The notes under the pieces are model-generated. The model was not told the origin of the DNA. It did not search any database and saw only the letters and a program-made list of their open reading frames with translations. This document shows, in pieces, positions 6,866-61,604 of a DNA stretch of 64,000 nt; position 1 is the first letter of the stretch, and each line of letters begins with the position of its first letter. Source of the stretch: Oscillospiraceae bacterium (GTDB lineage Bacteria; Bacillota; Clostridia; Oscillospirales; JAAYOS01); NCBI GenBank assembly GCA_031264245.1, contig JAISEG010000007.1, positions 1 to 64,000 of the forward strand, given 5' to 3'. A program made the translations under genes and the position numbers.

Positions 6866-7096
6866 TTAGCTTAATGAGTCGACAAGCGCGACTATTTCAT
6901 CCACAGTGGAGATCTCCTTGGCCCTGTCCTCCGGCACGGATATCTCAAAGCTGTCCTCAAGCGCCATAATCAGCTCGACCGCGTCCAGGGAATCCGCTCC
7001 GAGATCGTCGGTCAGGCTCGCGCCCATGACGACAAGCGCCTCGTCGCAGTTCAATGTGTCTACAATAACCTCTTTAACTTTATCAAAAGTATTCAT
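6866..7096 (-). CDS. acpP: Acyl carrier protein
   Basis: Small acidic four-helix carrier (76 residues) that holds growing acyl chains on a phosphopantetheine arm. The attachment site GADSLD gives Ser36, followed by the recognition helix AVELIMALEDSFEISVPE. It is the first gene of the minus-strand fatty-acid operon, with AGAGGAG about 10 nt before the ATG and a sigma-A-like promoter just upstream. The leading position of acpP, before accB and away from fabD or fabF, differs from the common clostridial order. Confidence 0.95.
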   Translation of the reverse strand: MNTFDKVKEVIVDTLNCDEALVVMGASLTDDLGADSLDAVELIMALEDSFEISVPEDRAKEISTVDEIVALVDSLS

Positions 7097-7155
7097 GTCA
7101 AAAAAACTCCTCTACTGGAAATAAAATGAAATTATAGTTAAAATAATTTAAATAT

Positions 7156-7183
7156 ATTGTATCAGGTAAGTCCATTATGTCAA
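7156..7183 (-). promoter_or_regulatory. Sigma-A-like promoter of the acpP-fabD operon
   Basis: On the minus strand TTGACA is followed after 16 nt by TACAAT, about 60 nt upstream of the acpP start. This is the only convincing promoter ahead of the eight-gene operon. I see no clear FapR- or FabT-type palindrome next to it. Confidence 0.7.
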
Positions 7184-7271
7184 GCATTTTTTTATATTGT
7201 TGAAGCCTCCCCGATATTTAAATCTATTCTACTATCACATGGCGGCGAATGCTGTATAATCATGTAAAATT

Positions 7272-16173: not shown

Positions 16174-16275
16174 GGGCGGGGTTAACCCCGCCCCTACAAA
16201 AAAACGCTGTGTTTTCAAAGGTTTGTGTAGGGGCGCGCACTGCGCGTCCGCGAAAAATGGTTCTTTTTCGACAGT
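16174..16275. repeat. Dispersed GC-rich palindromic repeat, two units
   Basis: The gap between the helicase gene and the giant adhesin gene (16113-16550) begins with a perfect 20-bp palindrome, GGGCGGGGTTAACCCCGCCC (16174-16193), followed by CCTAC. About 35 nt on lies a second unit, GTAGGGGCGCGCACTGCGCG, then TCCGCGAAAAATGG and TCGACAG. Both belong to the family seen near 25.6, 37.2, 37.7, 46.7, 50.2, 53.6, 59.3 and 64.0 kb. Confidence 0.75.
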
Positions 16276-16438
16276 CTGGTTAATAGTTGCAAAAGTTTTT
16301 TTAATCTGTTACACAATTGTAAAGTTTAGTTTTTTTAATGCTATTGTAATAAAATGATATATCAGGTATCATAAGAACAAATTAGGCGTTAATATTAAGT
16401 GATATTTTATCTTTTTTCATGGAAGGGGACAAGGAAGT

Positions 16439-16471
16439 TGTGACCATTTTGTGACCGGAACCGAGTAAGAT
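16439..16471 (+). promoter_or_regulatory. Tandem heptamer-controlled promoter of the thioester adhesin gene
   Basis: TGTGACC at 16439-16445 is repeated at 16450-16456, an 11-bp period, and is followed 9 nt later by a minus-10-like TAAGAT (16466-16471). No consensus minus-35 is present. The same box, spacing and distance to a minus-10 occur upstream of the vWA surface protein gene on the other strand. The layout resembles activator boxes of OmpR/PhoB-type response regulators; the regulator is not in the window. Confidence 0.6.
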
Positions 16472-16550
16472 TGTTTTACATATTAAGGAATTTTACGCAA
16501 AATACCAGCTTTGAGAATCAAACCCGAGAGTATCGAAAGGAGAGAGCAAA

Positions 16551-19500
16551 ATGTTTAAAATCAGGAAAATTATAACCTTGGCGCTTACTTTCTGTATGGT
16601 ATTATCGATCCTTCCCATGGGGGCGCTCGCGGATACGATAAAATACGGAGACGAAAGCGGAACCACCGCAACCTATTACTACACGGGGAGTAAGGATCCG
16701 AGTACCGACTCCATCGCATTTACCGAAAGCGGAAGAACCGGCGTAGAGCACATCTACAAGTATCAGCTGAATTTAGTGGGCAGCAGTGACCCGAGGGATT
16801 TGCTGTGGACCTATTGCAGCGATTTTTCCATTGCCCCGGTGGTAAATCAGCAGTATACCAGGATGGACATCGAAAAGGTCACTCCCTACAAACCGGACAA
16901 CTTTTTCACTGAAAAGGAGGACCCGGCGAAGCTCAGAGCCATACTTACGCAGTCCGACCTGTTTTTGAACCTTGCCGAAATCAGGACTAATACGGGAATT
17001 TCCGGGCTGACGGCGGAGGAAGCCATAAAGGCCGTCCAGTGCGCGATCTGGCAGGTGGTCAACAACGTCACCCCCAGCGAGACTACGCTGGGAAACGCAG
17101 ACAGCAACGTCCGAAAGTATTATGATTACCTGCTCCTCCTTGCGGGACTTGACTCCGACGCGATGGCAAAGCTGGAAATAAGGGAAATAACAAAGGCTTA
17201 CACACCGGGGAATGCTGACACAGCATATGACGTCACCATAAACGGCGCGGTGACGGGGCTTGGCATTTCCGATGTAAACATAAACGATTTAGCGGTCACC
17301 GCCGCGCTTAAATCCGGCGGCTCGATCAATGAGAAAATAAAGGTTTATACCTTGAACGGGACAAATAAGGACCCCGCTCTGGCGGCGAATGAGTTCATGA
17401 TAGTCATATCCGGAATACCGAGGAGCTCCGAGATTGACGTCAAGGTCTCCACCACTCAGGAGAATGTCAAAAAGGTCTACATCTTCTACCCGACGGGCGG
17501 CAAGGGCGCGTCCCAGACCCTTGTCACGGTTGATTCGGTGAACGTTCCCCTCACGGCGGACATCAACGTGACGCTGCCCGTAAACCACGAAAAGGTGACC
17601 TTCTTCAAGGAATGGAGAATTGGGAGCAAGACCGGTCCCGCCGTCGCGTCGGCTGTCGCGGACGGTTTGAAGTCCGTGTTTTCCATCACCTACTACAACA
17701 ACGGCAACAGCTACGACGGCTTGAAGGTCATAGGCGACGTCGTCCTCAACGGCAACGCCAACTATGAATCGGGGCTGTACTTCGAGCTGGGAAAAAACTA
17801 TAAGATCGAAGAGACTGTGGTCGACGGCAAGGATAACCCGGTCGGCACATATGTCAAATACTTTAAGGTAGTCCAGAACGACACCTTCCTGGAAATCGTC
17901 TGGACCGACGCGAACATGACCCCCCTCACGGGAGCGGCGCTTGTTGGGGCGAACGTCTTTACAAACGTATACACTGAGCCTACCGGCGCTGTGAGCGTCA
18001 CAAAGACAGTGACCGGAGCGCTGGATGCGCTGAAGGACGACACGTTCGAGCTCACGGCGGTCTATCAAAAAGCGGGCGGCGGGGGGAGCGCCCCGTACGC
18101 TAACGCCGAGTACGAGCTGTTCACCGGAGCGGCGTCCGGGGGGATGCTTACAACAACTTCGGAAGGCAAGCTTTCGCTTAAAGCGGGTCAGACAGCGAAA
18201 TTCTACGGAATCCCTGTCGGCTCCACCCTCACCGTAACCGAGAAAGCCGGCGGCAAGGCTTATTACACCTACGACACAGCCGCGAAACAGGCCACTGTTG
18301 CGACCGACGGGGAAGAGAAGCAAATCACCGTCACGAACACACTGAAAACCGGGGCTATTACCATAAACAAGGATGTGACAGGGAGCGAAGAGATTAGCTT
18401 CGCGACTATCGGCAGCATCTTCTTTACGGTTACAGACGCATCCGGAAAAGAGCATACCGTAGAGCTGACAAGCGGCAGCGGCAACCAGTCCAAAACCCTC
18501 ACCCTGCCGATAGGTCCCTTTACCGTTGTGGAGGGAACTGCCTCCATGACCGGCTACAACCACACCCTCACCTGGAGCTCGGTCGCGTCCTACACATACG
18601 AGAACGGTATCCTCAGCGGCGAGGTTACTGAGGGCGTTGCGGCTGTGACCTATTCCGCGAAGAACAACTACGAAAAGCAGGTTGGAAGCCTGACGGTTTC
18701 AAAGGCTGTATCGACAGGCGCCGGGGTAACAACCGTCCCGTCTGACAAGGCATTTACCTTCACACTGACCTTCAAGGGAAGTCCGGTGGCGAACAAGGCG
18801 TATACCAGCAACAAAACAAACGGCAGCACCGGTACCGACGGTAAATTTACCCTTGTCGCCGGTGAAACCGCAACCTTTGCCGGACTCGACGCGGGCGACT
18901 ACACGGTTACCGAGGCGGACGCGGCAATCGCGGAGCTGAACCTTGTGACGAAGGCTCAGATAGACGCCGGGGCGGAAAACGAAACAAACTCAGTCGTCGC
19001 GGCAGTCCCGGACAAAGGAACCGCCGAGGTGAAATTCACAAACGCCTACTCAAAATATTCGGGCAAAATAGAGATCACCAAGGTCATCGCGGGCGATTTG
19101 ACAAACACTTCCACGGCGACGGCGGATAAGACGTTTACCGTGACCGCGTACGCGGTGGTGGGCGGGATAACAAGCGAGACCCCGAGCGGTTCGGTAACCA
19201 TAGGCGCGCCGACCTGGAAGGGTACGATCGACGGCCTCGAGCCGGGGGTATACGCGCTGGTTGAGAGCGACACAGGAGTTACTCACTACACCGTAGTGGA
19301 CAACAGCTGGAGTGTCGCCGACGGTAAGGTCACTGTCGCGAACAACGGGACGGCGGCGGCGACCGTGACCAACACCTACACACGGCAAACCGCGTCGGTC
19401 GCGATAACCAAGAATATAACTAACTACAACGAAAAATACGCGAATCATGACTTCACCTTCACCGTTAAAGCGGACGGCGAGACATGGAACCCGATGAAAT

Positions 19501-22500
19501 ACACGGTGACGGGGACAGGCGCTCCGTCGGGTGAACAAACCAGCACAAATGGAACGCTGACCCTCAAGTACGGTTGGACAGCGACGGTCACCGTACCGGC
19601 GGGAGCGGTCATCACCGTGACCGAGACTGTGCTGACGGGGTACGCCCTTGCAAGCATCACCTCATTTACAAACGGAGAGGCGACTCCCGAAAGCGCGCTT
19701 TTCACCACTTACGCGTTATCCTCCGGAACCACAGCCTCCGCGACCTTCAACAACAGGCGCGAGCTTGGAAGCCTGACCCTGAGCAAGACCTTTGCGGGGG
19801 ACAGCGCGGGTGTGACCCTCGCGAAAGTCGGAACCGTAACCTTCACGGTCTCAGGTCCCGCCGACTGGACTCCGGTGGCAGCTGAGAACAGCGCCGTATC
19901 CGGAAGCACATTGGTCGTAACCCGGCCGGAGGCAGCCGGAGACGATTGGAGCTATACCCTGACGAACATTCCCGCCGGGAATTACACTGTCGTCGAGACC
20001 TACACCGATCCGTCCGGCTACACCTCTGACACGACCTATACCGTGAACAGCACAACCAATGGCAGCGGCATATCTGTCACGGCGGCGGTCAGTGACAGCG
20101 CGGAGGCGACAGTCGTGTTTACAAACACCTACAGGCTCAAGGTGGGCGCCGCCGTAATCGGAAAGACGGTAGACTACAGCGCGGTTCCCGACTTTAGCGG
20201 CATATATAACGATATAGAGTTCAGCTTCACCGCCACCTTCTCCCAGGCTGTGACCTCGACGCTGAAATATACGATCACCGGAGGAACAGAACAGACTGCG
20301 ATCCTTGAAACCGGAAACAAAGAGTTCAAGTTCACCCTGAAGCACGGTCAGACAATAACCATCACAGGGATACCCGAGGGCGTAACCGTCACAGTGACCG
20401 AGACTGCGCCAGACGGCAATATATTTGAAACGCCCGTGATAAGTCCCGCGAACGGAACAATCACCAACAACGGGACGACAATCAACTTCACGGCTACAAA
20501 CAAGGTCAAGGCATACACCGTAAACGTGCAGAAGCAGCTGTTTATAGGCACTGCGCTCGGAAGCAGTACACAGCTGAACGCGCCGACCGGGGGAGTGACG
20601 GCAACGGCAAGCGTAAAAGTTGTTACAGCTTCCAGTTCGGAGAAATCATACAATGTATCCTTGCAGATTGCGGCAGGCTCATACGCTTCGGTGGTGACAG
20701 CGGTTAAGGTTCCGTACGGCACGGTTTCCGTAACCGAATCCGGCGCCGTCGCGATTGCGGGCTATAGCTACGTCACCCGCGGGTACGTCGTCAACAGCGT
20801 CGCTGAAAGCGCCACCGTGCCCACCGCTGTGGCGAACGGCAGCACTGTCGTCATAAACAACTACTACACAAGGGACACGGGCGAACTGGCGGTTACGAAG
20901 ACTGTTACCGCTCCGTCCGATCCGGCATTCACTGGCAAGGAGTACGCCTTTACCCTCAAGCTGGGAAGCGACCCGGTAGTGGGCGCGGCGTATACCAGCA
21001 GTGTCGGAGCCGAGAGAAATGACAGCACCGGCGAAGGTGGCAGCTTCAAGCTTATCGCCGGGGAGAAGATAACCTTCGCGGGTCTCCCGACAGGCGACTA
21101 CACGGTGACCGAGGGCGATTCGAATGTCGTCGGCTACACGCTTGAGGTGACCGGCACGAGGACGGCAAACGTCACCAAGGACGGCTCTTCCGCGATAACC
21201 GTCACCAACACCTACACACTAAAGACAGGCGAGCTCAAGGTGACAAAGTCGGTCACCGGGCTCACAAATCCGGAGACATACAGCTTCAAGCTGTACAGGA
21301 GCGACAATTCACCGGTAATAAGCCACAGCTATCTGGGCAGCCAGAGCACAGGGGCTGACGGTTCGTTCACCATCACTGTCCCTAACGGTCAGACGTCAAG
21401 CACCGTAACCTTCAAGGGTCTGCCCGAAGGCAGCTACTACGTTGCGGAAGACGCGGCTTCGGCGGCCAGACCAAACTATGACGTAACAACCACCGGAGAC
21501 ACGTCGGCAAATCCCAAAGCCGTGTCGACGGCTCAGACGTCCGTCCCGGAAATTGAGGTGACAAACGCCTACACAAGGCATGTGGGCAGCCTGACAGTTG
21601 AAAAGAAGGTCTCAGCTCCGTCCGACGACACCGCGTTTGATGGCAAGGAGTACGCCTTTACCCTCAAGCTGGGAAGCGACCCGGTGGTGGGTGCGGCGTA
21701 TACCAGCAGTGTCGGAGCCGGGAGAAATGGCAGCACCCTCGCGGGCGGCAGCTTCACGCTGATTCACGGAGAAACCGTCACCTTCGCCGGTCTCCCGACA
21801 GGAACCTACACGGTGACCGAGGGCGATTCGAATGTCGTCGGCTACACGCTTGTTGTAACAGACGACGGCGAGAAGTCCGCGGCTGTCACCAAGGACACGA
21901 CCTCTCCCGTGAGCTTCACCAACACCTACACAAGGATCACCGACAAAACCATGACGCTGACAAAGACCGTCGGCGGCACAAAGCTCATCGGCGGAACCTT
22001 CACAGCCAGCGACCTGCCGAACGGCGCTTCCACTCAGTTCACCTTCACAGTCGCGGGTCCGTCCTACTGGACGCCGAACGCGGGCAACGTGAGCGGAGCA
22101 ACCTCGGCGTCGGTTGACGACGGCAAGCTGGTGATCGTACTTGTGGCGGGTCAGACGGCGACCATTTCCGCTCTGCCGGGCGGCGAGTACACCGTCACCG
22201 AAACGGCGCTGGCCGTTTCCGGGTACGTAAGAAGCACGGTTTACACTGTCGGCAGCACAGCGGCTCCCGCAGGTCTTGCGGCGACGGTCGCGGTGGAGGA
22301 CAATGTAGCGGTCGAGTGCGCAAACACCTACTCGCAGAAAAAGGGAGTGTTTACCCTTGAGAAGAAATATTCCGGCATAGAAGTGGCGGAGTGGCAAACC
22401 ATCAAGCCTTCATTTGAGTTTACACTTATAAAAATCAATGACGGCGGAGCTCCGGACAGCTATACGGCGGACACCGGATTCACTAAAGTCGATATAACGC

Positions 22501-25466
22501 TGGATAATGCCAACGGCTATACGCTGCCGGCGGGAATCAACCTCCCCGCGGGCACATATATCCTCACCGAGACGACAAAAGATGTAAGCAAGTTCACCTT
22601 TATCTCGGCGGCATGGGCGGACGGCGGCGGCAATATAACCGCGCCGAATGTCTCGGCGGACGGCATGTCCATACTCTTCACCGTCAGCGCGGACGACGCG
22701 GCGGATGAAAATATAAGCATAGTCTGCACAAACACCTACATCAAGGACGGCGCTGTCCTTCGCGTGACGAAGGAAGCGGTCGGCTACGCGGGAGAGGATG
22801 AGTTCGAGTTCCTCCTTGAAAAGGGCGGAGTAGCGTATGAAACGAGCTATATACTTCTCTTGGATGACGACGGCACGGTGGATACCGACGAGGGTGGTGC
22901 GGCGATAAACCACCCGGCGATAAGTGGCGTATTCAAGCTTAAAGCGGGGCAGACGGCGGTGTTCGCGGGTCTGGATACCGAAACGGTGTATACCGTGACG
23001 GAGCGGAATCTGAACTCCGACAAGTACGCGCTCAGCGGCAGAAGCTATACCGCCTACCAAGCGCCCAGCGATAACCCGCTGGCGGCACCCGGCGCCGGAA
23101 CGGCAGTGCCTGTCGCCGACGGCGGCAGCGCAATCGCCGCGACAATGGCGAAGAAGCTGACGGAGGACTTCAATCCCGGACTGCTCTTTGTCTTTGAGAA
23201 TACCCGCCACACAGGAAGCCTGAAGCTGAGCAAGGTCGTTTCCGACCCGGTCTACAACGGCGAGGCGTTTAAGTTCTACCTGCACTTCACCAATGCGGAC
23301 GGCTCGGATGTGATATTTGCCGACCTTGTGAAAGCAATGTTCCCGTCGCCTGAAAACGTGCCTGCAAACGTAACGGCAAACGTGACGGACGAGTGTCTGG
23401 AAATATCGGTAACGCCGACCGGCTCGGTTGTGATCCCCAAAATACCGGCGGGGCTGAAATACAGCCTGACCGAGGACAACAGCGAGTTTCTCTACGACTC
23501 CGTATACTCGGACGCCGAAAGCAATAAGCTTATCGAAAAGGGCGTACAGTCCGAGGTTACGGTGACAAACACCCGCAACACCGGGACCGTCTCCATCGAA
23601 AAGAATGTGATAGGCGGCAGCGCCGGGGACGAGACCTTCACAGTCAAGGTGACCTTCCACACTCCGGCGTATGCGGAGAGCTCCGAGCACTTCAAAATTG
23701 ACCTTCCGAGCTGTGTGCCGGAGATAAAACCGACAGCTTCGGGAACTTCCGGAACAGACGTCATATTCACAATTGGCATCAAAAACGGAGAAAAGGTGAC
23801 AATAAGTGAAATCCCATGCGGCATTGCCTACGATTTGCAGGAGGTTCTGTCCGCGGGCAGCAAATACCAGACGAGAATAATCGGATATGACGGAAAAGTG
23901 GATCCCCAGCCTCCGCAGCATGCAGGCAGCAGCAAGGAGGACTACAAAAAGGACGTCATCTACATCAAAAACTATCTCATCCCGTACAACACCCTTGTAG
24001 TATCCAAGAGCGTAACCTCAAACGACAGCGAGGTTCTGGGCTATGCGTATCCGTTTACGCTTAAGCTGGACACCCAGGATGGCACCTATCTGACAAAGCT
24101 GATAGATGAGCTCAAGGAGAGAAACGCGGCTCTGAACGTAAAGGCAAGTGATGAGCGCAAGGCGATTTTGCTGGAGATAGAAAAGCTTGAACCCACCGAT
24201 CCGAAGCTGACTGAATTGAATGAAGATCTGAAAGCCGTCGAAGCAAAGATAGCCAGATTCGGCGAAATCGGCACAAAATTAGCACAGAATATCTATGTCG
24301 AGTTTAACGACGACGGAAACATCCTGTTTTGGCAGACGACGCCCCCGTATAAGCTCAATATACAGGAGCAGGTGAAGGCATACAGGAAGAATGGCAGCGA
24401 AATAACCGATTCGACCGAGCTGGAAGAAATTGGATTTGCCCCCACGTCTGATAAGGGCGTATATTCCTTCAAACTAAAGGACGGTCAGCATATCAAGATC
24501 ATAGGTCTTCCTGAAAACACAGCGTACAGCGTACAGGAAACAGATATCGCAGAACCTGGACTCTGGCAGGAAACCAAGATTAACGGAACGCCTTACACTG
24601 ACAGAGATGAATTGATTTTCGGCGGAGTGATCATTGATGGCAGCAGTGAGGAAAAGAGCAACATCGCGGAATTTGAAAACATATACGACGATGTGACAGG
24701 AAAGCTTACAGTGACCAAAAGCTGGTCCGGCAGTGTCCCGAGCAACCTAACACGGATAAGGGTACAGCTTGTGATCAATGGCGATCCGTCAACCAACGAG
24801 GAGCATGTAAAGTATATAATCAAGGGCGAAAACGACGTCTGGTCCACGGTTGAATTCACCGATTTGCCAATCGGTAATAAATACGCTGTACTCGAGACTG
24901 TTCCGGGCGGTTATACTGCCAGCTATTCAAGCAATGGCATTACGCTCGATAGCGAGGGCATTACGCTCGATAAAGAAAACAAGGATTCCGCCGCGATAAC
25001 CATAACCAACACATATAATGTGCCGGATATTCCGACGTCACAGCAGCCGTCGCCGTCGCCGTCCGCGAGCCCGAGTACCCCGCCGTCGGCGTCGCCGTCA
25101 CCGTCGGGGTCGCCCGAACCGTCAACCTCACCCGCGCCGTCCTCAGAGCCGTCGGCGTCACCCACGCCAACGCCCGAAGTCGTGATTCCGCCTGAGATAC
25201 CGAGGCAGCCGGGAACGGAGCTGGTTCCCAAGGACGACGGATATGAAGTCATTGACGAGGACGGAACCCCTCTTGGAAAATGGACGTATGACGAAGAAGA
25301 GGAAGAATGGGTATACGAGGAGTATCCGCCGCTTGGCAACCTGCCTGTGACAGGCGGAGCTGAAATGAACTTTATGCTGCTGGTGGGCGGCGCGCTGACA
25401 GGAGTGACCGTGCTGCACAGAAGAAAGAAATACAGAGTAAAGCATGAGGACGCGCAGACTGAGTAA
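16551..25466 (+). CDS. Giant LPXTG surface adhesin with thioester domain and Cna-B-like modules
   Basis: A 2971-residue secreted, wall-anchored protein. A signal peptide (1-27, ending ALA) is followed by a thioester domain with WTYCSDF (Cys89) and VQCAIW (Gln163), the pair that forms a Cys-Gln thioester able to bond covalently to host or surface amines. Then come about 18 immunoglobulin-like modules resembling Cna-B/SpaA/DUF5979, each starting GxLxVxKxV and ending VTNTYT-like; the Lys and Asn fit intramolecular isopeptide bonds. One late module carries a charged, probably coiled-coil insertion (about residues 2515-2580). A Pro/Ser-rich stalk, the sorting signal LPVTGG, a hydrophobic helix and a basic tail close the protein. 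GGAGAG precedes the ATG. Two modules are nearly identical at DNA level. The ligand is unknown. Confidence 0.9.
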   Translation: MFKIRKIITLALTFCMVLSILPMGALADTIKYGDESGTTATYYYTGSKDPSTDSIAFTESGRTGVEHIYKYQLNLVGSSDPRDLLWTYCSDFSIAPVVNQQYTRMDIEKVTPYKPDNFFTEKEDPAKLRAILTQSDLFLNLAEIRTNTGISGLTAEEAIKAVQCAIWQVVNNVTPSETTLGNADSNVRKYYDYLLLLAGLDSDAMAKLEIREITKAYTPGNADTAYDVTINGAVTGLGISDVNINDLAVTAALKSGGSINEKIKVYTLNGTNKDPALAANEFMIVISGIPRSSEIDVKVSTTQENVKKVYIFYPTGGKGASQTLVTVDSVNVPLTADINVTLPVNHEKVTFFKEWRIGSKTGPAVASAVADGLKSVFSITYYNNGNSYDGLKVIGDVVLNGNANYESGLYFELGKNYKIEETVVDGKDNPVGTYVKYFKVVQNDTFLEIVWTDANMTPLTGAALVGANVFTNVYTEPTGAVSVTKTVTGALDALKDDTFELTAVYQKAGGGGSAPYANAEYELFTGAASGGMLTTTSEGKLSLKAGQTAKFYGIPVGSTLTVTEKAGGKAYYTYDTAAKQATVATDGEEKQITVTNTLKTGAITINKDVTGSEEISFATIGSIFFTVTDASGKEHTVELTSGSGNQSKTLTLPIGPFTVVEGTASMTGYNHTLTWSSVASYTYENGILSGEVTEGVAAVTYSAKNNYEKQVGSLTVSKAVSTGAGVTTVPSDKAFTFTLTFKGSPVANKAYTSNKTNGSTGTDGKFTLVAGETATFAGLDAGDYTVTEADAAIAELNLVTKAQIDAGAENETNSVVAAVPDKGTAEVKFTNAYSKYSGKIEITKVIAGDLTNTSTATADKTFTVTAYAVVGGITSETPSGSVTIGAPTWKGTIDGLEPGVYALVESDTGVTHYTVVDNSWSVADGKVTVANNGTAAATVTNTYTRQTASVAITKNITNYNEKYANHDFTFTVKADGETWNPMKYTVTGTGAPSGEQTSTNGTLTLKYGWTATVTVPAGAVITVTETVLTGYALASITSFTNGEATPESALFTTYALSSGTTASATFNNRRELGSLTLSKTFAGDSAGVTLAKVGTVTFTVSGPADWTPVAAENSAVSGSTLVVTRPEAAGDDWSYTLTNIPAGNYTVVETYTDPSGYTSDTTYTVNSTTNGSGISVTAAVSDSAEATVVFTNTYRLKVGAAVIGKTVDYSAVPDFSGIYNDIEFSFTATFSQAVTSTLKYTITGGTEQTAILETGNKEFKFTLKHGQTITITGIPEGVTVTVTETAPDGNIFETPVISPANGTITNNGTTINFTATNKVKAYTVNVQKQLFIGTALGSSTQLNAPTGGVTATASVKVVTASSSEKSYNVSLQIAAGSYASVVTAVKVPYGTVSVTESGAVAIAGYSYVTRGYVVNSVAESATVPTAVANGSTVVINNYYTRDTGELAVTKTVTAPSDPAFTGKEYAFTLKLGSDPVVGAAYTSSVGAERNDSTGEGGSFKLIAGEKITFAGLPTGDYTVTEGDSNVVGYTLEVTGTRTANVTKDGSSAITVTNTYTLKTGELKVTKSVTGLTNPETYSFKLYRSDNSPVISHSYLGSQSTGADGSFTITVPNGQTSSTVTFKGLPEGSYYVAEDAASAARPNYDVTTTGDTSANPKAVSTAQTSVPEIEVTNAYTRHVGSLTVEKKVSAPSDDTAFDGKEYAFTLKLGSDPVVGAAYTSSVGAGRNGSTLAGGSFTLIHGETVTFAGLPTGTYTVTEGDSNVVGYTLVVTDDGEKSAAVTKDTTSPVSFTNTYTRITDKTMTLTKTVGGTKLIGGTFTASDLPNGASTQFTFTVAGPSYWTPNAGNVSGATSASVDDGKLVIVLVAGQTATISALPGGEYTVTETALAVSGYVRSTVYTVGSTAAPAGLAATVAVEDNVAVECANTYSQKKGVFTLEKKYSGIEVAEWQTIKPSFEFTLIKINDGGAPDSYTADTGFTKVDITLDNANGYTLPAGINLPAGTYILTETTKDVSKFTFISAAWADGGGNITAPNVSADGMSILFTVSADDAADENISIVCTNTYIKDGAVLRVTKEAVGYAGEDEFEFLLEKGGVAYETSYILLLDDDGTVDTDEGGAAINHPAISGVFKLKAGQTAVFAGLDTETVYTVTERNLNSDKYALSGRSYTAYQAPSDNPLAAPGAGTAVPVADGGSAIAATMAKKLTEDFNPGLLFVFENTRHTGSLKLSKVVSDPVYNGEAFKFYLHFTNADGSDVIFADLVKAMFPSPENVPANVTANVTDECLEISVTPTGSVVIPKIPAGLKYSLTEDNSEFLYDSVYSDAESNKLIEKGVQSEVTVTNTRNTGTVSIEKNVIGGSAGDETFTVKVTFHTPAYAESSEHFKIDLPSCVPEIKPTASGTSGTDVIFTIGIKNGEKVTISEIPCGIAYDLQEVLSAGSKYQTRIIGYDGKVDPQPPQHAGSSKEDYKKDVIYIKNYLIPYNTLVVSKSVTSNDSEVLGYAYPFTLKLDTQDGTYLTKLIDELKERNAALNVKASDERKAILLEIEKLEPTDPKLTELNEDLKAVEAKIARFGEIGTKLAQNIYVEFNDDGNILFWQTTPPYKLNIQEQVKAYRKNGSEITDSTELEEIGFAPTSDKGVYSFKLKDGQHIKIIGLPENTAYSVQETDIAEPGLWQETKINGTPYTDRDELIFGGVIIDGSSEEKSNIAEFENIYDDVTGKLTVTKSWSGSVPSNLTRIRVQLVINGDPSTNEEHVKYIIKGENDVWSTVEFTDLPIGNKYAVLETVPGGYTASYSSNGITLDSEGITLDKENKDSAAITITNTYNVPDIPTSQQPSPSPSASPSTPPSASPSPSGSPEPSTSPAPSSEPSASPTPTPEVVIPPEIPRQPGTELVPKDDGYEVIDEDGTPLGKWTYDEEEEEWVYEEYPPLGNLPVTGGAEMNFMLLVGGALTGVTVLHRRKKYRVKHEDAQTE
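20934..21851 (+). repeat. Recently duplicated module inside the adhesin gene
   Basis: Positions 20934-21143 and 21642-21851, both 210 nt, are nearly identical: both encode GKEYAFTLKLGSDPVVGAAY and, later, TVTEGDSNVVGYTL. The module between them is unrelated, so the duplication is non-adjacent. Confidence 0.8.
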
Positions 25467-25502
25467 GCATTTTATCGGAGTAACATCAACATCGTAACAT
25501 CG

Positions 25503-25538
25503 AAAAGCGGTGAACAGAAAATTCTGTTCACCGCTTTT
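25503..25538 (+). terminator. Terminator of the giant adhesin gene
   Basis: A near-perfect hairpin: AAAAGCGGTGAACAGAA (25503-25519) pairs with TTCTGTTCACCGCTTTT (25522-25538), ending in a short T run. It lies about 35 nt after the stop. Confidence 0.85.
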
Positions 25539-25564
25539 ATAGCAATTTGCATTATCATATAGGG

Positions 25565-25850
25565 GACGCGCCCCCGCGCGTCCCGCAGCCTGTCGCGAAA
25601 GAACCATTTCTCGCGGACGCGCAATGCGCGCCCCTACGGACGCAAGATTTTCCCGCGCCCCCGCGCGTCCCGCAGCCTGTCGCAAAAGAACCATTTCTCG
25701 CGGACGCGCAATGCGCGCCCCTACGGACGCAAGATTTTCCCGCGCCCCTGCGCGTCCCGCAGCCTGTCGCGAAATAACCATTTCTCACGGACGCGCAATG
25801 CGCGCCCCTACGGACGCAAGATTTTCCCGCGCCCCCGCGTGTCCCGCAGC
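25565..25850. repeat. Tandem array of an 87-bp GC-rich unit
   Basis: Three full copies and a partial fourth of an 87-bp unit lie head to tail; for example CCTGTCGC starts at 25589, 25676 and 25763. Each unit contains the dispersed repeat core in the form GCGGACGCGCAATGCGCGCC followed by CCTAC. Copies differ at only a few positions. The array fills the space between the terminators of the two convergent surface-protein genes. No gene is supported here. Confidence 0.9.
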
Positions 25851-25870
25851 TTTCCGGCTTCTTTGACACG

Positions 25871-25916
25871 CTGACAAAAAGGGAGACCGGCTTTCGCCGG
25901 TCTCCCTTTTTGTCAG
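25871..25916. terminator. Bidirectional terminator between the convergent surface-protein genes
   Basis: A perfect 21-bp stem (25871-25891 with 25896-25916) has a 4-nt TTTC loop and A/T runs inside the stem on both sides, the classic two-way intrinsic terminator. It lies 27 nt after the minus-strand stop codon. Confidence 0.9.
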
Positions 25917-25942
25917 CTTAGAGTTTTAATTTTGCTTTGTGA

Positions 25943-28900
25943 TTACTCAGCGTCCTCGTCCTTTTTCCTTGATTTGAAGAATACGCCAAGTCCCGCAAGT
26001 CCTGCTCCGAGAAGTCCGAACGCGGCGTTCGAGGTTGTCGCGACGTCGCCGGTCTTCGGAATGATTTGGTCGATGATTTCTTCATCATCCGGAGGAACTA
26101 TCGCGTCGAGAGGAGGATTAATTTCATCCACTGTCTCTTCTTCGGGCGGGTTGGGGTTGCTCGGGAAGCTTGGGATTTCCGGACGGTCTATCGGAGAAAC
26201 CGGGATATTCGGGATCAGCGGGATTTCCGGTATCTCAGGAACGGTGGTTTCTGTAAGCTCGTAGTTGAGTACCACTACATAGGTGTTTCCTGCTTTCTCA
26301 AGCGTGAAGCTCATGGATGTGAGGGTTGTGCCATCAAGCGTTCCGCTTACGTAGCCGTAGGATGAATAGATGCCGCCACTATCGTTGCCCTTGTAGAAGT
26401 CCGTGATGATCGTCACTCCTTCGTTGTGAATCCCCGGCGTGACAGTGCCGGTAACAGTGTTCGTCGCGCCGCGCACGCCGTCAACTATACGGGTGTAGTT
26501 GCGGATCACCTGATAGGAGTAGTAGTTTTTCTCGTAGGTGTTTTTGATTACAAGACCGAGTTCTTCGTCGTAGCTGTAGTTAACGATGAAGCCCCTGCCG
26601 CCTAAGGTGATCATTCCGCCTTCATCTATCGTCTTGCCTTCCTTGACTTCTCTGAAGGTGTATTTTATCTCTTTTCCTTCTGCGTTATACACCGGGAGAT
26701 TTGTAAAGCGGATTACCCACTCGCCCTCGTCGTTCGGTGTAACCGTGGTTGTCACAGCGGTTTCGCCGTCAAATACCTGTGCTCCGTCGGCGAAGAGAGC
26801 GACTGTGATGCTTTCGGGAAGATTAACGCCCTCAGCGTCCCACACCTTCAAGCCCTCAAGAACCTCGATGTATTCCTGGTTTACCGTGTTGGTTATGAGA
26901 CCCGAAGCGGAGTAGGTGACTGTGTAGGTGTGGTCTCCGAATACGACCTCTGCGCCGTTTTTGAGAGCATTGCCTTGACTGTCAAGCTCTTGTACCGAGT
27001 ATTGGTATGCGTTGCGCTCGCGGTCATACTTGGGAAGCTCTTCAAAGGTGTACTTCCAGTCGTTATCCGCTGAGAGCTCCGGAGCGCTTGAAGGCATCGG
27101 CTCGCCGTTGCGGAAAAGCTGTACTGTGACTGGACCACCCTTAGGTCCGACCCAGTTCTTCTCGACGGTGAAGGGGATAAGGGGGTTGTCGCTGATGTTG
27201 ACTATTGTGCGCCTGTCTCTCAGCACTCTGCCGGTGAAGCCCTCGATCGAGTCCTCGGTGATGGTGTATCTGATTTCGCGGCCTGTTGTGTCATTGTACT
27301 TCTTAAGTCCCTCGAAGGAGTAGCTCCAATTGCCGTTTTCAAGGGCTGATTCAGCGGTGACTACCGCGTAGCCGGTGTTGGTTTCGTCGTCGTCACCTTG
27401 ATAACGTACTGTGATGGACTCGGGGAGAGTGCCGTCGGTCGGGTATATCCAAATCTTCACGCCGCTGACAGTCCTTTCGCCGTTGTTAAAGGTGTTGGTC
27501 ACGGTGAGTGGTGTTGCCGGGTCGAAGCTCGCGGTGTAGCGGTTGTATATCGCGCCTATGCCTGCCGCGCTTTCGCTGATGGTATAGATTATCTCCTGAC
27601 CGTCCTCGCCATAGATGGGAACTGTGAAGGTCGCTGTGAAGATGTTCTCATCCTCGGTTCCGGTCATCGCGTTTGTCTGAACCGATTCAACCGTTCTGCC
27701 GTCTGCCCTGAGCGATATTGTGTAGACCGGGCGGAGCTCCGGATTAAGCTCGTCGTCCCATATCTTTGTTACGGTCAGGTTCTGGGAACCCGGCTCGATG
27801 GTGTTGGTGAATACGAAGTTATTCTTGCTGCTGCCGTCGGTCGAGGTGGTGTAGCCTTCGATATCCGCCTCAGCCGCCGAGTACACTATTTCCTGCCCAT
27901 CAATATACTTGGGCATGTTGCGGGTGTTGGTATAACCATCTACGCTGGTCGTGACTGTTGCGGTATACTTGTCTCCCTCAACCGCTGTGCCGTTAACCTT
28001 GCCGGTCACGGTGATTATAGCTTTGATGCCCAGTTCGGCGCGCTGTTCGTCAGTGTACGGGTCTCTCCAGTTCTTTACGACCGTTACCGAAACTTCGTCG
28101 CCGTTAAGGGTATTCGTGACCGCTTCAGCTACGCCGTCTTCGTCCGTATCCGCGATGGTCGCCGCGTATAAGTCGATCTTTGTGATTTCTTCTATGGTGT
28201 AGATGATTTCGTTTCTTTCGTCATCGTACTTGGGGAAGTTGATTAGCTCATCATTCGAACCTACAAACGAGAAAGTGAAATCTGACCAGCTGTAGGTAAC
28301 TTCGCCTGTCGGCTCGTTGTCGTCATCAAGGACGTCGGTCTCGGTGGGGTAGACTGTGGCTATTGCGACTGGCTCAGTAGCCCCGTTCGCAAAGAGACCA
28401 AACTCGATGGGATCGCCGGTCGTCGGGCGTGTGCCAAATTCGTTGTTGCTGTCCACCCATGTCTTGCTTCCGCCGAAGGTGAGGTACTCCTGATCAAGCG
28501 TGTTGGTTATAACGTAGCCGTTGCCCGCGGTGCCGATATCGGTGGTCGTATAGCCGCCGACGCTGTCGCTCACGGTGTAGACTATCTCATGTCCGTCTTC
28601 GGCATACTTGGGGAATGTGCCTTCGAACGTGAACGTGTTATCCTCGGCAAGGGTAGTGGTGGCAATTGCGGTATCGCCATTATCGGCGTAGAGGTTTATG
28701 GTTACTTCGCCTTCATAGACTATGCCGCCGTCGACCCATACCTTGGTGCCGTTGATGGTGATATAATCCTGGGATATTTTGTTGGTTATGGTAAAGTTGT
28801 TGCTGGCGTCGCCTTCGTTTGGATCGTCGAAGCCAGTAAGCTCGGTTGCTTCGACGACGGTGTAGGTGATATACTGACCCGAACCGTCAAAGGCGTCAAG

Positions 28901-31132
28901 GTCTGTAAAGGTGTAGCTCCAACTGTCACTTTGAGGAAGGGTAATCGTGTGCTCAGTTGCTTCGCCGTTGGCGTAAAGCACGAAGGTAACCGGAACCTTT
29001 TTATCAGTCGGAGCGATCCAGACCTTGTTTACGGTGATATCTGTCGTGTCCTTAGCCGTGTTGGTGATTGAATATCCGTCGATATTGGTGGTGTAGCCGG
29101 GAAGATCTGTTTCGCCGGAAACCTTGTAGGCGATGGAAGCGCCTGTGGCTCTGTCGACCATCGGCAGGTCGCTTATAGTGTACTGCCATTTCTTCGCGTC
29201 TGCTGTGGCGTTAGCCGATTTTGTCATGGTATAGGTTCCGTAGTAAGCCCAGTCGTTGCTTCCGATTTTCTGAGCCAGCGTGAAGGTGATTGTAGGAAGA
29301 TTGGAGACAAGCGAATCCGGTACCTGCCAAATCTTGGTGACGGTGATGGAGCCCGGCTTCGGGTCGTAGTCGTTAAGGAATATCTTGTTGCCATCTTTTA
29401 TAAAGAAGGTTCCGTCGTACTCGGAAACAACGGTAACAACGCCGTAGTTTACGCTGATTTCATAGGTTTTTGTGCTGAGAGCCGCCGTTCCGCCGATGTC
29501 GACCCTGGTCTCAGACAGGATGTAGTTGTGCCCGGAGGGGATACCGGTGAATTTAACCTCGCCTGAACCATTGGAGGTCGCGATACCGGCAACTCTGTTC
29601 GGAGCCGCTTTTTCGGTGAGGGTAAAGGTAGCTCCATGATAGACCTTGCTGTCGCTCGCGGTGCCGATCCTCTTGGTGAAGTCGAACGCGCCTGTAAAGC
29701 CCTTGACCTTCGGGACGGTGAAGTTAGCGATAACCGGCGTCTTCGTCAGGTTTTCCCCGTTTTTCACAATGTAATAGTCTAATGTGGTTACGCCGTTGGT
29801 AAGTAACTGTGTAGCGCTGGTAAACCCGGTGTACAGATTATCAAGAGTTACCTTGTACGTATAACTGTACTGGAACCAGCCTGCATAATCGCCTCCGACA
29901 ATTTTTTGACCCGATTGTTCCTTCAAATCCCAAGACAGCTCGTTACCTTCAAATTTTTGGTTTGAGTTAAGAATGTTGTCGGAATTCCAGACAATATGGT
30001 CGCCCATCGGATCGCTTACGACCCAAGCGTCGGCGAAAGTGGTTATAGTTTTGGAGATATTCTCAAATATAATCGGGAGATCTTTTGTGGTCGCCGCGAA
30101 AACATTTTCGCTTCCGCAGATTGTCTTTAAGGTGTCTATAGTCGATTCAGCATACGCAACCGCGTAAAGCGACGCCGAATATCTCGGATATGATCCTGTT
30201 GTCGCGCCGTTCTTGATCTCATTCGCCCGGCTTTGCGCATATGTCGTGTTGCCGTTTCCGTTGCTTGGCAGTGAAAGACTTGTGCTGGAGGTGCTGTGAT
30301 TTCCGCTTCTGTTCGCATCACCATCGGTAAACAGGACAACATTGTTATTCTCGATCGCTCCGCCGGCTGGGATCGGCAGAACACGGTTTCCGCTGATACC
30401 CGTTCCGCTCTTGATATAGAGGTTACGGGCGACTGCCAACCCGGACTCGATGCTGGTATAATATCCGTTTGTAGCAGTGTTGTTATTGTTGGTGAAAGCC
30501 TTCAGGGTGCTCAGATAGTTCAGCACCGCCGCTTTCCCCGCCGCAGTGGACACATTCACCCAGTACGTCCCTGAAATTTGCTGGGCGACTCCGCTGGAAC
30601 CGAAAAGCACGATTCCTACGTAACGATCCGCTTTGCCGCTGTCATCGGCGAAAGTGTTTATAAAGTCTGCCGCCGCACTGCGCACAGCCGCGAAACGTGT
30701 CTGGTTCTCTGTGATGGTATTATTGTTTCTGTTATAGTGCGAGCATGAGTTCGCATGTGTGCCGTAACTCCCGCTACTACCGCTGCCGCACTCGGCGCAT
30801 CTGTACATGGACCCTGACATATCGAGTACCAGAACTACCGATGCGTCGGACGGGGTGACGTCGTTCTCGACATCCATCCTAGTCTTAACGTCGAGCGTAA
30901 TGCTGAACTCATTTTCCGGTCCGTTGGAGGCGATTGTCTTGGACACCGCCACCCAAGCCGAAGACCTGTTTTGGACGACAACTCCTTTTTCGTTGTAGAG
31001 CGTCGTCCCGCCCTGTAGAGCGATCTGGTCTGACGCGCCGTACGCCATGGCGCTGCCCAGGGGCAGCATACCCAGCAGCATCACCAGTGTGATAACCAGT
31101 GACAGGGTTTTTCTTAAACCAAGCTTCTTCAT
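25943..31132 (-). CDS. Giant vWA and Cna-B repeat surface protein, IPKTG-anchored
   Basis: A 1729-residue secreted protein resembling a pilus-tip or backbone adhesin. The signal peptide covers about residues 1-32. A von Willebrand A domain follows with the MIDAS motif DMSGS (104-108). Directly after it is a Cys/His-rich insertion (Cys112, Cys115, Cys130, His132). Then come about ten Cna-B modules of 80-100 residues, recognisable by KxW near each start, paired E or D in the middle, and TNT at the end, the layout that forms Lys-Asn isopeptide bonds. The end is IPKTGD, a hydrophobic helix and a Lys/Arg/Asp tail, a sortase signal with Ile instead of Leu. AAAGGAAG precedes the ATG. It is convergent with the thioester adhesin and shares its promoter layout. 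Confidence 0.9.
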   Translation of the reverse strand: MKKLGLRKTLSLVITLVMLLGMLPLGSAMAYGASDQIALQGGTTLYNEKGVVVQNRSSAWVAVSKTIASNGPENEFSITLDVKTRMDVENDVTPSDASVVLVLDMSGSMYRCAECGSGSSGSYGTHANSCSHYNRNNNTITENQTRFAAVRSAAADFINTFADDSGKADRYVGIVLFGSSGVAQQISGTYWVNVSTAAGKAAVLNYLSTLKAFTNNNNTATNGYYTSIESGLAVARNLYIKSGTGISGNRVLPIPAGGAIENNNVVLFTDGDANRSGNHSTSSTSLSLPSNGNGNTTYAQSRANEIKNGATTGSYPRYSASLYAVAYAESTIDTLKTICGSENVFAATTKDLPIIFENISKTITTFADAWVVSDPMGDHIVWNSDNILNSNQKFEGNELSWDLKEQSGQKIVGGDYAGWFQYSYTYKVTLDNLYTGFTSATQLLTNGVTTLDYYIVKNGENLTKTPVIANFTVPKVKGFTGAFDFTKRIGTASDSKVYHGATFTLTEKAAPNRVAGIATSNGSGEVKFTGIPSGHNYILSETRVDIGGTAALSTKTYEISVNYGVVTVVSEYDGTFFIKDGNKIFLNDYDPKPGSITVTKIWQVPDSLVSNLPTITFTLAQKIGSNDWAYYGTYTMTKSANATADAKKWQYTISDLPMVDRATGASIAYKVSGETDLPGYTTNIDGYSITNTAKDTTDITVNKVWIAPTDKKVPVTFVLYANGEATEHTITLPQSDSWSYTFTDLDAFDGSGQYITYTVVEATELTGFDDPNEGDASNNFTITNKISQDYITINGTKVWVDGGIVYEGEVTINLYADNGDTAIATTTLAEDNTFTFEGTFPKYAEDGHEIVYTVSDSVGGYTTTDIGTAGNGYVITNTLDQEYLTFGGSKTWVDSNNEFGTRPTTGDPIEFGLFANGATEPVAIATVYPTETDVLDDDNEPTGEVTYSWSDFTFSFVGSNDELINFPKYDDERNEIIYTIEEITKIDLYAATIADTDEDGVAEAVTNTLNGDEVSVTVVKNWRDPYTDEQRAELGIKAIITVTGKVNGTAVEGDKYTATVTTSVDGYTNTRNMPKYIDGQEIVYSAAEADIEGYTTSTDGSSKNNFVFTNTIEPGSQNLTVTKIWDDELNPELRPVYTISLRADGRTVESVQTNAMTGTEDENIFTATFTVPIYGEDGQEIIYTISESAAGIGAIYNRYTASFDPATPLTVTNTFNNGERTVSGVKIWIYPTDGTLPESITVRYQGDDDETNTGYAVVTAESALENGNWSYSFEGLKKYNDTTGREIRYTITEDSIEGFTGRVLRDRRTIVNISDNPLIPFTVEKNWVGPKGGPVTVQLFRNGEPMPSSAPELSADNDWKYTFEELPKYDRERNAYQYSVQELDSQGNALKNGAEVVFGDHTYTVTYSASGLITNTVNQEYIEVLEGLKVWDAEGVNLPESITVALFADGAQVFDGETAVTTTVTPNDEGEWVIRFTNLPVYNAEGKEIKYTFREVKEGKTIDEGGMITLGGRGFIVNYSYDEELGLVIKNTYEKNYYSYQVIRNYTRIVDGVRGATNTVTGTVTPGIHNEGVTIITDFYKGNDSGGIYSSYGYVSGTLDGTTLTSMSFTLEKAGNTYVVVLNYELTETTVPEIPEIPLIPNIPVSPIDRPEIPSFPSNPNPPEEETVDEINPPLDAIVPPDDEEIIDQIIPKTGDVATTSNAAFGLLGAGLAGLGVFFKSRKKDEDAE

Positions 31133-31183
31133 TGTTTTTTCTTCCTTTCAAAATGTAATTATTGCTCTCAGTTGGTGGATAAT

Positions 31184-31225
31184 GGTTATTCCGGAGGAAT
31201 AACCACGTATGTCACGTGACATACG
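31184..31225 (-). promoter_or_regulatory. Two adjacent hairpins in the vWA gene leader
   Basis: Within the roughly 160-nt untranslated leader lie two side-by-side inverted repeats: GGTTATTCC/GGAATAACC (31184-31192 with 31196-31204, loop of 3) and a perfect 20-bp palindrome CGTATGTCACGTGACATACG (31206-31225). They could be RNA hairpins or dimeric protein sites; neither is followed by a T run on the minus strand. Confidence 0.5.
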
Positions 31226-31293
31226 AAAAATTTGATGCTGTTTTCGATTTGCTTGCGATGGTTTTTCTTGGTGCTGTATCACTCTATGATGCG

Positions 31294-31326
31294 AGTATAA
31301 CCACTCTCGGTCACAGGACGGTCACA
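31294..31326 (-). promoter_or_regulatory. Tandem heptamer-controlled promoter of the vWA gene
   Basis: Read on the minus strand: TGTGACC, 4 nt, TGTGACC (31326-31309), then 9 nt and TATACT (31299-31294). Box sequence, 11-bp period and distance to the minus-10 exactly match those upstream of the thioester adhesin. Confidence 0.65.
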
Positions 31327-31412
31327 TTTGGCAAGTTTTGAGTCATTTACCAAATATTTTTTCAACTGGACATTGATAATCGCTGACCTATGATCAAATA
31401 ATAATGTAAACC

Positions 31413-31459
31413 GGTCACAAATCAGTCACAAATCGCCGTTTTTGTGAAATTATTGTGAA
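31413..31459. promoter_or_regulatory. Additional upstream heptamer boxes
   Basis: About 100 nt upstream of the vWA promoter the minus strand carries TGTGACT-N4-TGTGACC (31431-31414). Just beyond it the plus strand carries TTGTGAA-N4-TTGTGAA (31442-31459). Both have the 11-bp period. The rest of the 31133-31668 gap is AT-rich, with no gene seen. Confidence 0.5.
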
Positions 31460-44892: not shown

Positions 44893-44953
44893 GCGTAACA
44901 AAACGCTGATAGCTCCACGACAAAAATAATCGTAGAAGCTATCAGCGTTACGC
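44893..44953 (-). promoter_or_regulatory. Leader hairpin directly upstream of the antiporter ribosome-binding site
   Basis: On the minus strand GCGTAACGCTGATAGCT pairs with AGCTATCAGCG and then GTTACGC, with a 4-nt bulge and an inner ACGA/TCGT pair. The structure ends 5 nt before GGGAGG. Its position suggests control of translation of the antiporter; it could also be an attenuator. A second inverted repeat, GTTTAACAC/GTGTTAAC, lies just upstream (44967-45009). Confidence 0.5.
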
Positions 44954-45038
44954 GGTTTAGGCAGCTGTTTAACACAATATGCCCCGGAGAGCTTCATCTC
45001 CGTGTTAACTTGTCTATGTTATGTCAAATTGCTATAGC

Positions 45039-60444: not shown

Positions 60445-61341
60445 TTATCCCTCTTCGGTCCACTTCCCGCCGAATTTATTGTACCAGCCCTTGGGATACA
60501 TAGGCTTCGGATTTTTTTCGTACAGCGACGTGTCCGGCTCGGCCGATTCGCCCTCCCTGAGCTTTCTGCCCGCGATGATTATACGCAAATCGTCTATTTC
60601 GTATGAGCAGCAGGTCAGAAGCACAAGCTGATCCTCCGGCCCGACGTCCACCCCGGTGAGAAATATGGAACGCTTGGTGATTTCCTCCACATGCGCCGTA
60701 AAGGCGTCGTCGTCCTTGAACACGGCGTTGGGATAGTAGTAAAAATATTCGTCCTTGCTCGACCCCGCCATGTAGAACACGGAAAATATCTTGTAGCCCG
60801 CGTCCTCATAGAGGCTGTCGAAGGTGAATACCGGAGTTTTCTTCAGGAAATCCAGGCTTTTAAAGCTGTGCAGCTCCGAAAACATCCCCCCGGTAAAGCG
60901 GTGATGCCCAAACAGCGCGAGGCTGCGGTTGTTTACGAGCAGGTCGGCGCTCTTGTCAAGGAACGGCACGCCGTTGCGGTACGGCTCCCTGTTAAAGTTG
61001 TGGCTTAGATAATACTCGTTGTCCTCACAGTATACAACGGGGAAATCTATCCCGGTGTTAGGTACCCTTATCCAGCCGACAAAGTCCTCGTTTTGTTCGT
61101 AATAGCTCAAAAACTTATCCATTATCACCGGCTCGGGGGTCGGAGTCGGAGACGGCGGCGGGGTCGGCGATGGGGACGGCTTTGGCGTCGGCGATGGGGT
61201 CGGGGACGGCGGCGGGGAAGGCTCCTCCAAAACAGGCGCGTCGATATTATAGAAATAGTTATACGCAAAAATTCCAAGCGCGGCAATGCAGAGAATACCC
61301 GCTATGATAAAAACCAGCGCGCCCCTGTTCCCCCTGTTCAT
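60445..61341 (-). CDS. Class B sortase
   Basis: A 298-residue membrane-anchored transpeptidase that attaches proteins to peptidoglycan. It has an N-terminal membrane helix (8-30), a Pro/Ser/Thr linker (about 40-70, SPTPSPTPKPSPSP) and the sortase domain. The catalytic triad is His146 (FGHHR), Cys244 (LLTCC) and Arg253 (DLRIIIAGR). The class B call rests on the FVGWIRVPNTGIDFPVVY start and the insertion before the active site. The ATG at 61341 follows GGGAGG by 10 nt. The window's two sortase substrates end LPVTG and IPKTG; whether this sortase serves them is inference, since class B enzymes often use NPQTN-like signals. Confidence 0.88.
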   Translation of the reverse strand: MNRGNRGALVFIIAGILCIAALGIFAYNYFYNIDAPVLEEPSPPPSPTPSPTPKPSPSPTPPPSPTPTPEPVIMDKFLSYYEQNEDFVGWIRVPNTGIDFPVVYCEDNEYYLSHNFNREPYRNGVPFLDKSADLLVNNRSLALFGHHRFTGGMFSELHSFKSLDFLKKTPVFTFDSLYEDAGYKIFSVFYMAGSSKDEYFYYYPNAVFKDDDAFTAHVEEITKRSIFLTGVDVGPEDQLVLLTCCSYEIDDLRIIIAGRKLREGESAEPDTSLYEKNPKPMYPKGWYNKFGGKWTEEG

Positions 61342-61604
61342 TGCAAAACCGCCTCCCGTTTTTTTGTTGACATTTAATATTCTATCACATTTTTTTCCCG
61401 ACGGCAATTCTACTTTTTCTTCCCGGGCATAAAATTATAGCAAGGGTATCTTCATTAACGGAAATTTTGCGCCTTTTTTTAAATTTTCTCCGGTTTTCCC
61501 TCACCGATCTGATAAACAGCTCATATAATTGAAATGAGACGTCTTTTAAAGTTAACCCGCCTTATTACACCATGGCAATTTTTAGATTGGAGAAGGAGAC
61601 GGAA

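Follow-up and report, generated by a model that had tools for sequence, protein, structure and literature searches.

How are two giant surface proteins that are encoded side by side switched on, and by which regulator? The question is raised by a 64,000-nucleotide stretch of an Oscillospiraceae genome (the window), where the convergent genes of a thioester adhesin and a vWA/Cna-B protein are both preceded by tandem TGTGACC repeats. To our knowledge, little is known about the regulation of surface adhesion in gut-type Clostridia. A first-pass annotation of the window had proposed that the two genes form one regulon under an OmpR/PhoB-type activator encoded elsewhere; our analysis supports the regulon but points to another family of activator.

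Three tandem boxes in the window

The 33-bp pattern TGTGACY-N4-TGTGACC-N9-TANNNT matches three times in the window (Table 1) and not once in 100 dinucleotide shuffles of it. Boxes 1 and 2 are the two sites of the first-pass annotation and proved exact. Its tally of two overlooked Box 3, an equally good copy 104 bp upstream of Box 2 on the same strand, which may act on the vWA/Cna-B gene either as a distal tandem promoter or as a second operator. A tandem pair comparable to Boxes 2 and 3 is found on contig C10 of a related genome (G037). In Box 1 the repeated unit is the octamer TTGTGACC, with a period of 11 bp and its first T at 16438. When the tandem repeat was sought with up to one mismatch and no -10 requirement, the available sequence of the window's genome (G000; 1.2 Mb, 9 contigs, 47% complete) yielded these three sites only, and the reversed pattern none.

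At all three sites of G000 a TANNNT hexamer lies exactly 9 bp 3' of the repeat. The earlier remark that a consensus -35 is absent was borne out, as no hexamer 16-18 bp from the -10 of the three boxes agrees with TTGACA at more than three of six positions. Instead, direct repeats with an 11-bp period overlap the -35 region in all three window boxes as well as in the boxes of related genomes. A fixed -10 spacing without a standard -35 could also mean that the box is a promoter read by an alternative sigma factor and is not bound by an activator. We consider this very improbable, because the -10 consensus TATAMT is that of the housekeeping sigma, because the upstream element is a tandemly duplicated octamer that points to a dimeric activator, and because the sites track a regulator gene (see below). 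Still less credit can be given to a CRP/FNR-type dimer. TGTGAC does include the CRP half-site TGTGA, but CRP/FNR sites are inverted repeats, whereas the halves of the box are direct repeats 11 bp apart and a mirrored half occurs in no site. As a separate observation, the 5' leader of the vWA/Cna-B gene (window 31180-31235, minus strand) holds two adjacent perfect hairpins, CGTATGTCACGTGACATACG and GGTTATTCCTCCGGAATAACC, the second of which bears an anti-Shine-Dalgarno-like CCTCC at its apex; translational control is possible.

Table 1. Coordinates of boxes, genes and box-associated loci (plain numbers are window positions; G, C and L are our handles for genomes, contigs and loci)
Feature	Location	Strand	Description
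Box 1	16439..16471	+	TGTGACCATTTTGTGACCGGAACCGAGTAAGAT; -10 TAAGAT after N9; putative promoter of thioester adhesin gene
Box 2	31294..31326	-	TGTGACCGTCCTGTGACCGAGAGTGGTTATACT; TGTGACC-N4-TGTGACC-N9-TATACT; putative proximal promoter of vWA/Cna-B gene
Box 3	31398..31430	-	TGTGACTGATTTGTGACCGGTTTACATTATTAT; TGTGACT-N4-TGTGACC-N9-TATTAT
Thioester adhesin	16551..25466	+	intact ORF, 2971 aa; Box 1 upstream
vWA/Cna-B protein	25943..31132	-	intact ORF, 1729 aa; Boxes 2 and 3 upstream
Sortase, class B-type	60445..61407	-	TIGR03064 3.1e-39, below curated cut-off
Candidate regulator	G000:C4:227561-228778 (= L128:7561-8778)	-	405 aa; followed by two SWQG genes
SWQG genes, G000	L128:7099-7542 and L128:6821-7036		147 and 71 aa; 3' of SARP gene
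SWQG genes elsewhere	L146:1519-2031, L023:7312-7794, others
Gene neighbourhood	L146		SARP-SWQG-box-surface protein
Gene neighbourhood	L137		SARP-weak box-SWQG-box-surface protein
Gene neighbourhood	L135		SARP-weak box-SWQG
Gene neighbourhood	L142		SARP-box-surface protein
Gene neighbourhood	L147 (Anaerovorax odorimutans)		SARP, sortase (6886-7518), box, 1353-aa collagen-binding protein
Gene neighbourhood	L138, L095		SARP adjoins box-driven 2.7-kaa protein
Gene neighbourhood	L136		SARP 4 kb from box

The box precedes many surface-protein genes in other genomes

An order-wide scan of 394 genomes with TTGTGACYNNNTTGTGACCN9TATAMT, allowing up to two mismatches, returned 26 sites in nine genomes, among which they cluster (n=7 in G291, n=6 in G037 and n=5 in G083). 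The first-pass annotation had named frequent random occurrence of the box as grounds for giving up the common regulon; with three sites in G000 and the reversed pattern in 0 of the 394 genomes, the regulon was not refuted on these grounds. Among 84,980 species genomes, exact matches were present at 35 loci, 22 of them in Clostridia or Erysipelotrichaceae (taxon as named in the record). These 22 belong to Gemmiger, Ruthenibacterium, Fournierella, Limivivens, Lachnospiraceae, Anaerovorax and uncultured relatives. The other 13 loci mostly lack a plausible placement of a downstream gene, and exact matches outside Clostridia (Methylophilus, Omnitrophota and others) were set aside as chance or unrelated.

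The genes 3' of the box mostly encode large signal-peptide proteins with adhesin domains (vWA, Cna_B, SpaA, collagen-binding, SHIRT, MucBP and Flg_new), often LPXTG-anchored. A signal-peptide-like gene follows 38 of 60 site records, which may include near-duplicates, compared with 25% of neighbouring genes (p = 6e-9); because the heuristic used is crude and generous, as this background indicates, only the excess over it is used. At 7 further site records the downstream gene encodes a small SWQG protein (described below). The boxes of G037 are mixed, several having no surface gene downstream, so the regulon can extend further.

This recurrence also bears on a simpler account of the window, in which a single upstream region was recently duplicated and its identical promoters are no sign of co-regulation. 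In favour of this account, two giant surface genes with repeats are direct neighbours. But the three boxes differ from one another in spacer bases and flanks, and in other genera the box recurs with unrelated flanks before unrelated surface proteins. Recent duplication is thus largely refuted, and we give it next to no chance.

Genes for SARP-type proteins often accompany the box

SARP proteins are known as activators controlling antibiotic production in Streptomyces and its relatives among the Actinobacteria. In G167 the gene after a box-driven protein of 2669 aa encodes a winged-helix plus BTAD protein, the SARP domain pair, and PF03704 (BTAD) was present in 20 of 21 genomes searched, which had been chosen for box-like sites; in G399 a box is present and no BTAD protein was found. 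Reading of neighbourhoods placed a SARP gene near the box in eight genomes (Table 1). SARP gene, box and surface gene stand together, with or without an SWQG gene between them, in L146, L137, L138, L142, L147 and L095, and in G037 (L132:9067-10011) a class B sortase gene lies directly upstream of the SARP gene, which is followed by an SWQG gene.

A profile of the 405-aa SARP family, run on 245 genomes of the order, detected the family in 46. All six genomes with strict TGTGAC boxes have it (p = 3.3e-5). With a relaxed box, TGTRACY-N4-TGTRACY-N9-TATAMT (control 0), the family was found in 19 of 26 box-bearing genomes vs 27 of the 219 others (Fisher p = 1.2e-10), and 8 of 34 relaxed sites have a SARP gene no more than 10 kb away vs 0.33 expected (p = 2.6e-9). 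These tests count each genome as an independent case, which holds only in part. No box at up to one mismatch was found in 27 of the 46 SARP-bearing genomes, and SARP was not detected in 7 of the 26 box-bearing ones. One of these seven is 65% complete and has congeners that carry SARP, and in two the site has a common TTATGCGCATTATAA context, suggestive of a different element. The repeats of G084 and G052 (L198:1376-1532, L199:1500), in which TGTAACC-N4-TGTAACT is followed by TTATGCGCATTATAA in genomes where the SARP family was not detected, are probably a different palindromic element.

Tandem 7-mers with an 11-bp period are common to SARP and OmpR/PhoB regulators, and it is the genomic context that favours SARP. 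Pho boxes, such as that of E. coli phoA, also have the form of tandem 7+4-bp repeats near the -10. If an OmpR/PhoB-family response regulator such as PhoB/PhoP bound the boxes, the adhesins would respond to phosphate or envelope stress. G000 encodes four response-regulator-sized proteins with strong Trans_reg_C matches, and both G291 and G083 have a pst-phoU-RR-HK operon with a box 2-3 kb downstream of its response regulator gene. This pst-pho neighbour had suggested PhoB as the regulator, an idea dropped on reading the pstS promoter of that locus, whose repeats are of the TTTACAT/TTAACAT type and not TGTGAC. Moreover, the two cases of adjacency are orthologous, come from sister genomes (L082, L088) and count as a single locus; a receiver-plus-winged-helix response regulator was seen near no other box, against eight genomes with a SARP gene close to the box; and box presence tracks the SARP family over the 245 genomes, the family for which that test was run. 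The OmpR/PhoB assignment of the first-pass annotation is therefore probably wrong, and a regulator of this family appears unlikely. Proximity to the boxes was also considered for the OmpR-type proteins of G000, none of which is encoded on the window's contig. The pstS promoter repeats of G291 (L082:780-850) appear to be this lineage's genuine pho box.

The candidate regulator

The SARP-type protein most likely to regulate the window boxes is the 405-aa protein of G000. Its gene lies on contig C4 and not on the contig of the window, and within the window there is no SARP or SWQG gene, in line with the earlier proposal of one regulon with an activator encoded elsewhere, which is well supported. 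No box was found beside the G000 SARP gene at up to five mismatches, so autoregulation is unsupported in this genome. The BTAD domain (PF03704, 8.4e-17, residues 117-258) directly follows an N-terminal OmpR-like winged helix, which matches PF00486 at 1.6e-6 and 2.4e-7 in family members and weakly (0.0026) in the G000 copy alone. At the profile level the family matches AfsR (3.7e-18, over AfsR residues 47-265) and EmbR (1.2e-9), and its C-terminal domain resembles GGDEF (4urg, 2.6e-8). The GG(D/E)EF signature is lost in all 17 aligned rows (e.g., RYSGAQY), so the role of this domain may be sensing or dimerisation and not c-di-GMP synthesis. No receiver domain (Response_reg) was matched in the box-linked regulators.

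A second BTAD protein is frequent in clostridial genomes, and G000 too has another one, AfsR-like and 617 aa long (C4:140088-141941). As about half of the genome is available, another SARP family member could be the true regulator; the family itself is present, and we infer that this particular paralogue acts in G000.

The SARP gene is often accompanied by genes of the SWQG family, small proteins of about 70 or 150 aa with the motif RQN-[AS]-[ST]-WQG...FRS-x-LE-[LM], which in several genomes are themselves preceded by a box. SWQG has no Pfam or NCBIfam match and is a new family with a strong functional association. The AlphaFold model, for which three sequences were used, has a mean pLDDT of 54, which is insufficient for a fold search, and weakly suggests two beta-beta-beta-alpha units.

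A second box type and the recognition helix

Tandem TGTAACC repeats with the same -10 spacing lie beside SARP genes in genomes that have no TGTGAC boxes, and the order-wide relaxed scan confirmed this type. The recognition helix reads ALKT..HR in 9 of 10 genomes with TGTAACC boxes and mostly ALKN/S..YR in those with TGTGACC boxes. This covariation has p = 1e-4 with shared ancestry ignored, and the TGTAACC label (type A) was assigned in part from boxes detected next to these very SARP genes; in the tree, the A-type SARPs fall into a few clades. The G000 protein is intermediate, having ALKTLLYR (ALKT..YR) together with TGTGACC boxes.

The variable T/N position of the helix aligns with T88 of AfsR and the conserved R with R92, which are the two base-contacting residues in the AfsR cryo-EM structure, T88 contacting the fifth base pair of the repeat (PMC10936776). 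In TTGTRACC it is the fifth base that varies, which by analogy would match the T88 contact if the register is the same.

Proposed mechanism and relation to known systems

In SARP promoters, 11-bp direct repeats overlap the -35 and the 3' repeat lies about 8 bp from the -10 (PMC10936776). Two protomers bind next to each other and provide a docking site for sigma region 4 (PMC10936776; PMC5930380), and AfsR contacts 8 bp of each repeat (PMC10936776). The window boxes share this anatomy (8 bp + 3 bp, 8 bp, 9 bp to the -10), and we therefore propose sigma adaptation by the 405-aa protein; the gap from TGTGACC to the -10 hexamer is 9 bp, and its comparison with the published 8 bp (PMC10936776) depends on the assigned repeat end. 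On the evidence taken together we give a probability of about 80% to the reading in which a SARP-type activator acts through the three boxes, as its operators/promoters, and switches on sortase-anchored giant adhesins.

Two winged-helix plus BTAD protomers would bind TTGTGACC-N3-TTGTGACC side by side on one face of the DNA, covering the place of a -35 element, and would recruit housekeeping RNA polymerase to the TATAMT-like -10 located 9 bp downstream, as in sigma adaptation by AfsR. Binding, the direction of the effect (activation) and the position of the transcription start are inferred here. Under this scheme the SARP would switch on the thioester adhesin through a single promoter, and the vWA/Cna-B protein through a tandem pair. 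Among related Clostridia its regulon would consist of the SARP itself, SWQG and giant surface proteins, joined in some cases by a sortase encoded next to the regulator. The signal may enter by way of SWQG or of the degenerate GGDEF domain.

The fold and the promoter logic are of a known kind. Like the SARPs AfsR, ActII-ORF4, DnrI and PimR and like EmbR of M. tuberculosis, the clostridial protein has a winged helix followed by BTAD, and both sets of sites are 11-bp direct repeats (7-8 conserved bp plus a 3-4 bp spacer) that replace the -35. It differs from them in having a degenerate GGDEF domain at the C-terminus instead of NOD/TPR or FHA, in its linkage to SWQG, in targeting adhesins and not antibiotic clusters, in a host outside the Actinobacteria, and in a promoter that combines the heptamer TGTRACC with a good TATAMT -10. 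PhoB/PhoP and other OmpR-family regulators also combine a winged-helix fold with 11-bp direct-repeat boxes over the -35, but the candidate regulator is without a receiver domain and the pstS repeat of G291 differs from the box. Streptococcal pilus loci have a dedicated regulator of sortase-dependent surface proteins in RofA/Nra (PMC10763501); this is another protein family than SARP and serves as an analogy only.

No earlier report of this box/regulator system was found in the open-access literature searched. As far as that search goes, the novel features are the clostridial branch, its regulon of surface adhesins, the partner protein SWQG and a two-letter variation of the box that is matched by helix residues. 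A further-reaching version, which we advance tentatively and would not expect to hold in every part, is an undescribed system in which a SARP with a non-catalytic GGDEF domain and SWQG partners turns on giant adhesins as a set, an N/Y vs T/H helix code reads TGTGACC vs TGTAACC, and a signal from a nucleotide or the surface is sensed by SWQG or by what is left of the GGDEF domain. A divergent SARP branch appears to control adhesins in gut-type Clostridia. With the box as a simple sequence marker, surface proteins that are co-regulated could be predicted in uncultured gut bacteria, and the covariation of helix and box makes a specificity code testable with purified proteins.

The giant surface proteins and their surroundings

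The thioester adhesin has a signal-peptide-like start, a thioester domain (TED) and about 11 DUF7601/DUF5979 repeats, and ends with an LPVTG sorting signal, a hydrophobic stretch and RRKK. The vWA/Cna-B protein is of the tip-pilin/MSCRAMM-like type, with a signal-peptide-like start, a vWA domain, a GBS104-like Ig domain, nine Cna_B domains and a C-terminal IPKTG sorting signal. Both sorting signals have hydrophobic, basic tails and match TIGR01167. The window proteins share vWA, GBS104-like Ig, Cna_B, TED and LPXTG-like signals with sortase-anchored fibrillar adhesins and tip pilins (GBS104-like proteins, thioester adhesins and MSCRAMMs), from which they differ in their unusual size (2971 aa for the adhesin) and in a shared SARP-type promoter in place of a pilus island with its own regulator. 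Their shared regulation suggests that the two may act together on the cell surface.

The class B-type sortase of the window, the only sortase found in the available G000 genome, is a candidate anchoring enzyme of the giant surface proteins; no box adjoins its gene. Between the convergent genes (window 25560-25860) lie three near-identical copies of a GC-rich, REP-like repeat (GGACGCGCAATGCGCGCCCCTACGGACGCAAGATTTTCC...), of which a related copy precedes Box 1 at about 16225-16260. The window also carries a fluoride riboswitch (RF01734, 41.5 bits) at 44926-45010 on the minus strand.
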